DNA of 64,000 bases from Paragemmobacter straminiformis. GTDB taxonomy: Bacteria > Pseudomonadota > Alphaproteobacteria > Rhodobacterales > Rhodobacteraceae. The stretch is from contig NZ_JACLQD010000005.1 in NCBI RefSeq assembly GCF_014243445.1, positions 1 to 64,000 of the forward strand, read 5' to 3'. This document shows positions 59,966 to 63,954 of the stretch, in pieces (positions within the stretch are counted from its first letter, which is position 1; each line of letters begins with the position of its first letter). The notes beneath the pieces were generated by a model. The model was not told the origin of the DNA, did no database searches, and worked only from the letters and a program-made list of their open reading frames with translations. A program made the position numbers and the translations under genes.

Positions 59966-60469
59966 CTATGCTACGATTTCACTCGGAATGATAAAGTCTA
60001 CCGTGGTCGCCTGACCGAAGGCGGCGTCGTCCCAGATGTCGATCGAGAAGTCGCAGACAAGGGTCGCGCCGGTGGGGTAGCGGGCGAATTCGGGGTTGTT
60101 GGGTTCGCGGGCGACAAGGCGGCGGGCGAAGTCGGCGATGCCGGGGTTATGGCCGATCATCATCACCGTGTCAGCGGTGGCATGGCGCAGCACGGCAAGC
60201 ATCACTTCGGCCCCGGCGTGATAAAGGGCTGGTTTCAAATGCAAAATCGGCGTGCCGGGCAGGGCGGGGGCGATGCCGCTCCATGTTTTGCGGGTGCGAA
60301 GGGCGTCCGAGCAAAGCACCTCGTCGGGCACATAGCCGCGCGACGAGAGCCATATGCCAAGGTCGGCGGCGGCGGCCTTGCCGCGTTCGTTGAGCGGGCG
60401 GTCATGGTCGGGGGTGAGCGGGTCGTCCCAGCTTGATTTGGCGTGCCGAGTCAGGATCAGACGCTTCAT
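59966..60469 (-). CDS. SixA-like histidine phosphatase
   Basis: 167 residues from the ATG at 60467-60469 (MKRLILTRHAKSSWDDPLTPD). The RH of TRHAKS (positions 8-9) is the phosphohistidine site, and MMIGHNPGIADFARRL holds the second catalytic histidine. Small SixA-type members remove phosphate from histidine-containing proteins such as HPt domains or NPr; the target here is unknown. An ATG 129 bases upstream is in frame, but the product would start with a basic tail unlike the family. Confidence 0.9.
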   Translation of the reverse strand: MKRLILTRHAKSSWDDPLTPDHDRPLNERGKAAAADLGIWLSSRGYVPDEVLCSDALRTRKTWSGIAPALPGTPILHLKPALYHAGAEVMLAVLRHATADTVMMIGHNPGIADFARRLVAREPNNPEFARYPTGATLVCDFSIDIWDDAAFGQATTVDFIIPSEIVA

Positions 60470-60501: not shown

Positions 60502-61143
60502 TCAATCCACCCCGTGGAATCGGCGCATGTGGTAGGCCGACTGTTCTGCAAGTCTTGCATAGCCTTGCGAGAGCGGGCAAGCGCGACGGGGGTGGCAACC
60601 TTCGTTAAGGCAATCTGAACCCGTGTCGAGATAGGCGTGGCAGGCTGGCACGTCGTAACCAAGGTTAGTTAACGCCCCCACCGGACAGGCCGAAAGGCAG
60701 GGTTTTGCCACGCAGCCATCGCAGGGCCTTGCGGCGGGGGGAGCAAGGTCGATGCGGTCGCGCAAGGCAAGCGCGCCGCGAAAGCTGACCATAAGCCCTT
60801 GATGTTCATGGACCAGCAGCCGAACGGGGCTTTCCCAGATGCGCCCCGTCCGCAAGGCCCAGCGGTAGAAGGGGTGATAGGGCGGGCCGCCAAAGGGAAA
60901 GATCGCGGTCGCGGAATGGGCCGAAGCGATATTAACCAAGACCCGTTCCGACCAGCGGTCGACCGGATCGCGCTGGCCGTCGCGCCATTCGGGCTGGGCC
61001 GTCAGATGCGCCCAAAAGCCCGGTTCGGCCGGACCGACCAAGAGCAGGGTTCCCGTGCCGGGAGGGGCTGAATCCTCGGGCTCGGGGTAGAATCCGCCCA
61101 ATATTTCAAGATGATGGGCGGCGAGGGCCTGCGCCAGTGTCAC
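60502..61143 (-). CDS. Ferredoxin-like protein with eight cysteines
   Basis: 213 residues. The C-terminal half has [18 protein letters not shown] (C-x2-C-x4-C-x3-C-P) and then [23 protein letters not shown], given here as [14 protein letters not shown] and CHPRRACP, with four more cysteines. This suggests two 4Fe-4S clusters. The layout, with an N-terminal part of about 140 residues and a C..YL motif, recalls the epoxyqueuosine reductase QueG half, but spacing differs and no B12 site is seen. I cannot assign a reaction. Its ATG overlaps the argB stop (ATGA), so the two genes are translated together, though no link to arginine synthesis is known. Confidence 0.75.
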
Positions 61144-62039
61144 CGCTTGACGCGGGGTTTGACCCGCGGTTCGGTGCTGCGGATCTGGCTGCCTGCGCCG
61201 TGGTCGGTGAACAACTCCATCAGGCAGGCATTGGCGACGCGCCCGTCAAGAATAGTTACCGCGCGCACGCCTTCCTCGAGGGCCAGAAGGGCGGTTTCGG
61301 TCTTGGGAATCATGCCACCGCCGATGGTGCCATCTTTTATCATTTCGCGAACTTCTTCGGGGGTGATCGCGGTCATGATCTCGCCCGCGGCGTTCTTCAC
61401 GCCGGAGACATCGGTGAGCAAAAGCAGGCGGTCGGCCTTGAGCGCGCCCGCGATGGCGCCAGCGGCGGTGTCGCCGTTGACATTGAACGTCTCGTTATCG
61501 GCCATGCCGGTTGCCACGGGGGCGACGACGGGGATGATGCCGGCGTTGTAGAGGTCGCGCAGAACCTGCACGTTCATTTCGATGGGGCGGCCCACGAAGC
61601 CAAGCTCGGGGTCGTCGGCTTCGCAGACCATCAGGTCGTCGTCCTTGCCCGAAATGCCCACGGCGCGGCCACCGGCATCCATGATCGCCTGCACGATGCG
61701 CTTGTTGACAAGGCCCGACAGGATCATTTCGACAACCTGCACAGTGGCCTTGTCGGTCACCCGTTTCCCGCGCACGAAGTTCGACTTTATGCCAAGCTTT
61801 TCAAGCATTTCGTTGATCATCGGCCCGCCGCCGTGAACCACGACGGGGTTGACCCCGACCTGCCGCATCAGCACGATGTCGCGGGCGAATTCGGCCATTG
61901 CGGCGTCGTCGCCCATGGCGTTGCCGCCGAATTTCACCACCACCACCGCGCCGGAATAGCGTTGCAGGTAGGGCAGGGCTTCGGAGAGCATCTTGGCGGT
62001 GAAGGCGGCGTCGGACATGGTGCTCGTCTGCGGTTTCAT
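61140..62039 (-). CDS. argB: Acetylglutamate kinase
   Basis: 299 residues. It phosphorylates N-acetylglutamate in arginine synthesis. [13 protein letters not shown] is the ATP loop, [14 protein letters not shown] the substrate part, and [16 protein letters not shown] plus [15 protein letters not shown] the remaining binding sites. The N-terminal helix ([20 protein letters not shown]) is the type that supports hexamers inhibited by arginine. MKPQTST start, with a second ATG seven codons later. Stop overlaps the next gene by four bases. Confidence 0.97.
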
Positions 62040-63179: not shown

Positions 63180-63333
63180 GGCAGTCTCCGGTTGAAAGAT
63201 ATTGACAGCAAACGCGGCGCGGCCCGAGAGGTTCCCGCGGCGGAACAGCGCCGGTGCGGGCAAAGGCCGACATTGCCGCAGGTGCAAAGGGTGCTTTCGG
63301 TGTTACGCTGCGTCGCAGCATCGGGGGATTCGC

Positions 63334-63954
63334 ATGGGCGTCGTCGTCACCATCGCGCAGCAGAAGGGCGGGTCGGGCAAGACCACGCTGGCCGCGAACC
63401 TTGCGGTTGCCTTTCAGCGGCAGGGTTTGCGGGTGGCGGTGCTTGACACCGATCCGCAGGGATCGCTGGGGCGCTGGTTCATGCTGCGGCGCGAGAGGGG
63501 CGCGGCGGGGATCGAGTTTTCGACCGCTTCGGCCTGGGGGGTCAGCTATGAATGCGAAAAGCTGCGGCGGCTGTCGGATGTGGTGATCATCGACACGCCC
63601 CCCAAGGTGGATGCCGATTTGCGGCCCGCGCTGCGCGAGGCCGATCTTGTGCTGGTGCCTGTCGCGTCGAGCCATGTGGATCTGTGGGCGCTGGAGGGCG
63701 TGCTGGATCTGGTATCGCGCGAGGGGCGGCGGGCGGTGATCGTGCTGAATCAGGCGCGCGCCGGAACGCGGTTGACGGCGGATGTGGCGGCGGCGGCGGG
63801 AAGCCATGCGGCCGTGGCCGCTTCGCGTCTGGGGCAGCGGGTGGTCTTTGCCGAAAGCCTTGGGGCAGGGCAGGGCGTGGCCGAGCTGGGCCGCAGCGCC
63901 GCGCGCGACGAGGTCGAGGCGCTGGCGGCGGAAGTGCTGGCCCTGCTGGGGTGA
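63334..63954 (+). CDS. Orphan ParA-family ATPase
   Basis: 206 residues from ATG 63334 (MGVVVTIAQQKGGSGKTT). The deviant Walker A loop KGGSGKTT (11-18), DTDPQGSLGRW and VVIIDTPPKVDADLR identify the ParA/Soj/MinD group. It is shorter than chromosomal ParA and has no ParB gene next to it. Orphan ParA proteins can position chemoreceptors, carboxysomes or other cargo; MipZ is larger. The function is open. The upstream frame (from 63202) is not ParA-like. Overall GC-rich, like its neighbours. Confidence 0.88.
   Translation: MGVVVTIAQQKGGSGKTTLAANLAVAFQRQGLRVAVLDTDPQGSLGRWFMLRRERGAAGIEFSTASAWGVSYECEKLRRLSDVVIIDTPPKVDADLRPALREADLVLVPVASSHVDLWALEGVLDLVSREGRRAVIVLNQARAGTRLTADVAAAAGSHAAVAASRLGQRVVFAESLGAGQGVAELGRSAARDEVEALAAEVLALLG

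Follow-up and report, generated by a model that had tools for sequence, protein, structure and literature searches.

The window, as we call the whole stretch of 64,000 nucleotides of Paragemmobacter straminiformis DNA analysed here, carries on its minus strand a gene that starts with GTG (61143-61141), stops with TGA (60504-60502) and follows argB so closely that the bases GTGA at 61143-61140 are common to both, the argB stop being TGA at 61142-61140 (Table 1). The frame and its four-base overlap with the argB stop are as the original prediction had them, and the same holds for the C-terminal pattern of eight cysteines: the encoded protein has exactly eight (residues 141, 144, 149, 153, 168, 178, 183, and 189), all in its C-terminal third. 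A short-chain dehydrogenase gene lies upstream of argB in divergent orientation, and near the window end a frame on the plus strand (63202-63954, IAQQKGGSGKTTLAANLA) was named by eye as a ParA/MinD-like ATPase.

Table 1. Features of the argB locus, with positions in the window.
Feature	Position	Strand	Basis or remark
Gene for a protein with a CblC/QueG-type corrinoid domain and two 4Fe-4S clusters (both predicted)	60502..61143	-	213 aa, GTG start; frame, model, fold
N-terminal domain, residues 1-139, CblC type, predicted to be corrinoid-binding, with H112 and R122	60727..61143	-	
C-terminal putative dicluster module, C141-x2-C144-x4-C149-x3-C153-x14-C168-x9-C178-x4-C183-x5-C189-P190	60574..60723	-	Cysteine conservation; analogy with QueG
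Overlap GTGA (4 bases) of family-gene start and argB stop	61140..61143	-	
argB, N-acetylglutamate kinase, Rhodobacterales neighbour of the family gene	61140..62039	-	AA_kinase E 3e-46 (Pfam)
Histidine phosphatase superfamily gene, next downstream on the same strand	59966..60469	-	His_Phos_1 E 6.7e-9 (Pfam)

With the single protein as query, matches were obtained in 36 of 61 genomes among relatives (own genome counted), and a profile of two homologues recovered one homologous copy each in 133 of the 149 genomes of the order sample at E 6.4e-27 or better; with another profile 135 genomes were counted, two of which (G162 and G229) gave a weak match only. Conservation of the gene in its order, Rhodobacterales, exceeds chance. 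One genome of the window's genus (G003, 1.5 Mb) has a broken copy, with a short frame and an internal stop, at a locus (L042, G003:C14) where argB is matched at full length. In an alignment of 189 rows, made of non-redundant homologues collected by tblastn alone, thinned at 85% identity and passed through no motif filter, each of the eight cysteines is found in nearly every row (in order, 189, 189, 189, 188, 188, 185, 188, and 189), R122 and R186 are invariant (189/189), H112 is kept in 152 rows, and residue 62, the sole conserved acidic or amide position reported, is Asp in 180 rows and Asn in 9. Asn takes the place of H112 in a divergent branch from another class of the same phylum, found in 16 genomes of the taxonomic family f162 (E about 1e-27 to 1e-37), in which neither R122 nor any of the eight cysteines has changed in the 15 rows counted and the neighbouring genes vary from locus to locus (L249-L260, L264-L267). 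An intermediate, weak homologue (G297:C65:3470-3988, L229; E 2.4e-14) may represent another branch of the family. Few branches of the family tree were supported; 13 of the 14 sequences labelled as argB-linked fell in one set, the fourteenth (L192) later proving to be mislabelled, and sequences linked to mtg genes were scattered over the tree (4 changes).

The original prediction had named profile search and structure prediction as checks, and it was the family profile and the fold that were informative, not the single-protein searches: taken alone, the window protein found nothing significant in Pfam, NCBIfam, or the PDB sequences. The AlphaFold2 model, computed from the window protein and 73 relatives, reached a pLDDT of 94.2 and a pTM of 0.90, with no residue below 50. 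In a Foldseek search of the PDB the best 24 rows were all MMACHC or QueG, followed by reductive dehalogenases, and the MMACHC rows had a probability of 1.00, the best E being modest at 2.4e-3 and none reaching 0.001. When the 116 chains returned by Foldseek were realigned with VIA, from which all Z scores given here derive, the best match was human MMACHC with methylcobalamin (Z 12.9 over 185 residues, nearly the whole length), seven MMACHC entries lay at Z 11.9-12.9 with 173-185 residues aligned, QueG reached 11.5 (178 residues) and RdhA 8.3 (172 residues), and the next rows were nitroreductases at 3.2. The modelled protein can be assigned to the CblC/QueG/RdhA fold with high confidence, and we regard this assignment as firm. 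As the model matches MMACHC, QueG, and RdhA, the N-terminal half is a likely corrinoid-binding domain, which speaks against the earlier statement that the protein has no visible cofactor site; judging from the model, the cysteine pattern does not stand alone either, MMACHC, QueG, and RdhA being its relatives in fold.

The eight conserved cysteines map in order on the eight ligands of QueG, and two 4Fe-4S clusters are therefore likely, as had been proposed from the cysteine pattern. By analogy, C141, C144, C149, and C189 would hold the distal and C153, C168, C178, and C183 the proximal cluster. QueG and RdhA are described as having a domain that binds base-off cobalamin followed by two clusters, one of which touches the corrin (PMC4646009). 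Fold and cysteines suggest the same succession of a corrinoid domain and an eight-cysteine, two-cluster module, that of the Class III B12/4Fe-4S enzymes, in the window protein, which would combine both halves in minimal form. The resemblance to QueG noticed in the cysteine pattern proved to be real beyond the structural match, since hhalign aligned 76 columns of the family profile, from residue 95 onward, with the QueG of the own genome (E 4.6e-6, probability 86). The same profile found QueG-sized frames, presumed to be QueG, in many genomes (E 1.6e-9 to about 1e-4); at E <= 0.001 the own-genome QueG was absent among the matches of this search.

This distant homology by structure and hhalign is what would favour a second epoxyqueuosine reductase, to which we give next to no chance. 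Against the QueG model TIGR00276 the window protein scored 12.1 bits (residues 102-171 of a 212-aa query) with a cut-off of 200, and a full QueG that scores 428.5 bits is already encoded elsewhere in this genome (G000:C8:1160069-1160263; L001:1210-2250, minus strand), so that a queuosine role is unlikely and a second enzyme of this kind is not needed. The DYH motif present in the own-genome QueG is absent from the window protein, whose chain ends 24 residues past the last cysteine and thus misses the QueG-specific C-terminal domain, and within the second half of the module the spacing is x9, x4, and x5 in the family against x25, x2, and x3 in S. thermophilus QueG (PMC4646009). 

More generally, the protein might be an enzyme of the QueG or RdhA kind, in which cob(I)alamin and two clusters reduce some organic substrate. 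Domain order and cluster pattern are as in both, and the conserved Asp/Asn at residue 62 helps a little; this position may correspond to the active-site Asp of QueG (D130 in S. thermophilus) and lies ahead of the hhalign match, which begins only at residue 95. RdhA has the corrinoid domain and the two clusters that are predicted for the family protein, but the latter is much shorter, and no dehalogenation context was seen. PMC4646009 describes an active-site Tyr common to QueG and RdhA, for which column conservation gave no counterpart, the best N-terminal Tyr column (residue 89) reaching 53% of the 189 rows. The chain of 213 aa also has no substrate-binding tail, and the gene is tied to methyltransfer genes, not to a catabolic set (see below). 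We consider such an enzyme improbable.

Human MMACHC (CblC) is a cyanocobalamin reductase and alkylcobalamin dealkylase that works with flavin or glutathione. The Pfam family MMACHC (PF16690, curated cut-off 27 bits) did not match the window protein itself, yet 13 of 37 N-terminal domains, the window's own not among them, matched it with E values of 1 or less (best 1.1e-4), and every other Pfam family was matched by two of the 37 at most. When ten N-terminal domains were scanned singly, eight matched it with 10.8-16.4 bits; a PF16690 search of 58 genomes gave no match anywhere and, as its controls were also silent, is uninformative. Searches of the PDB sequences depended on the profile: with that of the whole protein ferredoxins dominated, with that of the 37 N-terminal domains no relative was found, and with a ten-member N-terminal profile six of the seven matches were MMACHC (E 0.26-0.51), a result that is suggestive only; each member had been chosen for a prior Pfam MMACHC match, and the profile is biased accordingly. 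In its alignment the family motif H-x3-G-x5-R-G lies on MMACHC IHPRFGGWFAIRG (chains 9mrs_A and 3sbz_A), so that R122 would correspond to Arg161 and H112 to His151; in the hhalign alignment these two positions are taken by Leu and Ser in the own-genome QueG. Arg161 belongs to the glutathione pocket of MMACHC and anchors glutathione (PMC10740964). There are also clear differences, as identity in the structural alignment is only 15-16% and MMACHC has no iron-sulfur clusters, its C-terminal part being replaced in the family protein by the predicted ones; according to PMC4646009 MMACHC 'lacks the corresponding ferredoxin domain' even though it binds cobalamin like QueG and RdhA. As R122 and H112 fit MMACHC and the shared Tyr is missing, the protein appears to be built like a Class III enzyme but with a pocket that leans to CblC. 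None of the tests placed it under MMACHC, QueG, or RdhA, and it apparently represents an undescribed family of this group. Homologues are named 'ferredoxin' or 'hypothetical protein' in database records, which would suit an electron-transfer ferredoxin without corrinoid whose N-terminal domain is a docking module; with a CblC-like fold and an invariant Arg located in precisely that domain, we find this very improbable.

Indications of a client for the putative corrinoid protein come from gene clusters. On plasmids of Sinorhizobium meliloti (pSymB), Paracoccus aminovorans (plasmid IV), and Shinella, homologues follow an MttB-family (mtgB-type) gene and are surrounded by genes for a corrinoid protein, DUF1638, and a methyl-THF:cobalamin methyltransferase, joined in the stretches seen of Paracoccus and Shinella by a RamA-like ASKHA gene; these three were examined out of seven plasmid matches, the other four being three further Sinorhizobium records and a second one of Paracoccus aminovorans. 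A Dyp-type peroxidase gene and an encapsulin shell gene lie a few kb from the mtg cluster of Paracoccus aminovorans plasmid IV (L188, 13759-15584). On chromosomes, the family gene is divergent from mtgC-like and DUF1638-like genes at two loci (L223, L224), stands just 5' of an mtgC-like gene with DUF1638 behind at another (L225), and is directly followed by mtgD-like and RamA-like genes at a fourth (L234). It also comes after an mtgB-type gene at L263 and L268, from two genomes of one genus that may be Sinorhizobium, Paracoccus, or Shinella. By similarity and annotation, the genes of these clusters are putative mtg orthologues; in Ruegeria pomeroyi the mtg genes serve methionine synthesis and glycine-betaine demethylation (PMC12478193). 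At E 1e-10, mtg genes were near the family gene in none of 80 named Rhodobacterales loci (the best 80 of 582) and in none of 20 distant loci (L167-L186). None was found nearby at the 16 loci of the divergent branch either; in later sets they were nearby at 4 of 14 loci, a set selected in part for contigs that also carry DUF1638, and at 2 of 20. In the own genome, mtgE-like (bmt), mtgC-like (B12-binding), and DUF1638 genes stand together at G000:C12:388-393 kb (8382-12671 of L226, G000:C12:380000-398000), about 330 kb from the family gene on the same contig; RACo is encoded on C9 and PF02514 is present, and the MetH activation domain PF02965 is absent from this genome and from the two other members of the order sampled with it (G061, G094).

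The distribution across genomes agrees with these clusters, the family gene travelling with the corrinoid-methyltransferase reactivation set in Alphaproteobacteria. Among 240 alphaproteobacterial genomes 49 were carriers (E < 1e-20), a count that scores G297 (E 2.4e-14) as non-carrier and includes several fragmentary copies from incomplete genomes. Of the 56 genomes that encode DUF1638 or a RamA-like activase, 38 have the gene, and of the 184 that encode neither, 11 do; taken separately, the figures are 32/43 with and 17/197 without DUF1638 (Fisher, p 2e-18), and 37/55 with and 12/185 without the RamA-like RACo_C_ter (Fisher, p 1e-19), the latter including three weak or partial matches (G043, G258, G408). 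The link with PF02514 is weaker (38/93 with, 11/147 without), and PF02514 is a loose mark of B12 synthesis because the CobN family also covers magnesium chelatase. Within the 93 PF02514 genomes the links with DUF1638 and RACo persist (p 4e-10 and 1e-9, respectively). As relatedness inflates Fisher p values, we also counted by taxonomic family (p 1e-11 for DUF1638 and 6e-15 for RACo, assuming 148 families) and, in the order sample, where the family gene is missing from 8 of the 10 genomes that have no DUF1638 (p 1e-7), after excluding the genus g81, which holds five of them (p 0.003). Exceptions to DUF1638 in the order go both ways, with 8 genomes having DUF1638 without the family gene and two of one genus (G116, G206) the reverse, so the gene is not strictly needed. 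In the class sample, 18 of the 56 genomes with DUF1638 or RACo miss it, and 11 of the 49 carriers have neither; PF02965 is present in 10 of these 11 and PF02514 absent from 7.

Both RamA/RACo (PF14574) and DUF1638 (PF07796) resemble the family in that they co-occur and sometimes cluster with it, but RamA/RACo is an ATP-dependent ASKHA protein and the family protein is modelled with a corrinoid-domain fold; neither of these Pfam families nor PF02965 matched the window protein or sets of 25 and 37 relatives. RamA-like and DUF1638 proteins have been proposed as B12 reactivators in Phaeobacter and Ruegeria (PMC5764234, PMC12478193). Phaeobacter inhibens, which like the window's genome is without PF02965, has RamA-like and DUF1638 mutants that methionine rescues; what DUF1638 does was left without a specific proposal by the authors of that study (Price et al., 2018; PMC5764234). 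A simple replacement of the MetH activation domain by the family gene was considered and rejected, as there is no overall link, and hence no overall anticorrelation, with PF02965 in the class sample (p 0.53); among PF02514 genomes the correlation is negative (p 0.007).

From the computed fold, cysteines, CblC-like motif, co-occurrence, and clusters we infer that the protein binds a corrinoid, in which direction electrons pass, and which client it serves at which step, and we propose, in what we judge an evenly balanced case, a CblC-type corrinoid oxidoreductase with a built-in ferredoxin whose main Rhodobacterales client is MtgC of MtgBCDE. Electrons from a cellular reductant would enter the distal cluster, pass to the proximal one and from there to the corrinoid cobalt, the cofactor sitting base-off in the N-terminal pocket. 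They would reduce cob(II/III)alamin there or remove its upper ligand and in this way restore or deliver the active corrinoid. The recipient would be MtgC, which carries the corrinoid in the split methionine synthase/glycine-betaine methyltransferase, a system that is widespread in marine Rhodobacterales; in the own genome, a RamA-like activase and DUF1638 may stand in the place of the reactivation domain built into MetH. Tentatively, and with somewhat less than even confidence, the protein could be seen as a third, so far undescribed factor in bacterial corrinoid reactivation, namely a CblC that brings a ferredoxin of its own, reduces or reloads the Mtg corrinoid and links the human B12 chaperone structurally to QueG and the dehalogenases.

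A broader function is conceivable, in which cyano, alkyl, or aquo ligands would be removed from incoming or oxidised cobalamin, with the protein's own ferredoxin, on behalf of all B12 enzymes. MMACHC being the closest fold and the one Pfam family with matches from more than two of the 37 N-terminal domains would suit it, as would R122 and H112, which fit MMACHC, unlike the own-genome QueG. The 11 carriers without DUF1638 and RACo point the same way, the 7 without PF02514 possibly importing B12, and most of the distant loci show no common neighbour. Yet few genomes that lack the Mtg reactivation genes carry the family gene (11/184, and 4/46 even among PF02514 genomes), which is repeatedly placed in mtg clusters, and we rate general B12 processing as rather unlikely, though it is the main rival. 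In view of the co-occurrence exceptions and the mtg-less divergent branch a broader B12 role stays alive, Mtg then being the commonest alphaproteobacterial client.

The authors of a QueG structure consider further B12/4Fe-4S families possible and a distinct cobalamin-binding motif lacking to find them (PMC4646009). The present family, small, single-copy, near-universal in one order, and inherited along with B12-dependent methyl transfer, looks like one of these; no description of it was found in the open-access literature searched, the sections seen of PMC5764234, which reports the methionine-rescued RamA-like and DUF1638 genes, leave it unmentioned, and neither 'ferredoxin' nor 'argB' occurs in the main text of PMC12478193. 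If the proposal is true, there would be a concrete gene for two questions: by what means aerobic bacteria keep a split methionine synthase reduced when it has no reactivation domain of its own, and in what way a CblC-like fold operates together with iron-sulfur clusters in the same chain.

The position beside argB, from which the original prediction started, seems to be a habit of the lineage rather than a clue to function. In Rhodobacterales the linkage expected in relatives was found, with argB on the same strand at a gap of up to about 1.7 kb in 75 of 80 named loci (the best 80 of 582; three of the 75 argB neighbours have implausibly long overlaps, probably frame errors) and on the same strand in 28 of 30 loci from the order sample, those with the best scores, but outside the order it was near the family gene in 0 of 27 loci (1.5 kb flanks, two shortened by contig ends). 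When neighbouring genes were clustered for loci outside Rhodobacterales, no general partner emerged, and most of the distant loci were without a common neighbour. Since none of the 27 outside loci shows the linkage, the pairing with argB is an arrangement of one order, not a general partnership, and does not point to a function. A role in arginine synthesis, for which the gene would be translated together with argB, could draw on the nearness, shared strand, and frequent overlap within the order; given their absence elsewhere, and a gene that follows corrinoid genes across the class, it is extremely improbable. At all six wide-gap Rhodobacterales loci examined (L060, L073, L080, L091, L104, L110) the two genes are moreover separated by a hydrophobic ORF of 233-264 aa, which by eye we take to resemble a sterol desaturase. 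The overlap itself is nearly fixed in the window's genus (17 of 18 loci, the broken copy of G003 excluded); over all 36 loci of that comparison four bases are shared at 22, and among the 80 named loci (best 80 of 582) at 23; the eighteenth locus of the genus (L014) has a possible GTG at the overlap position.
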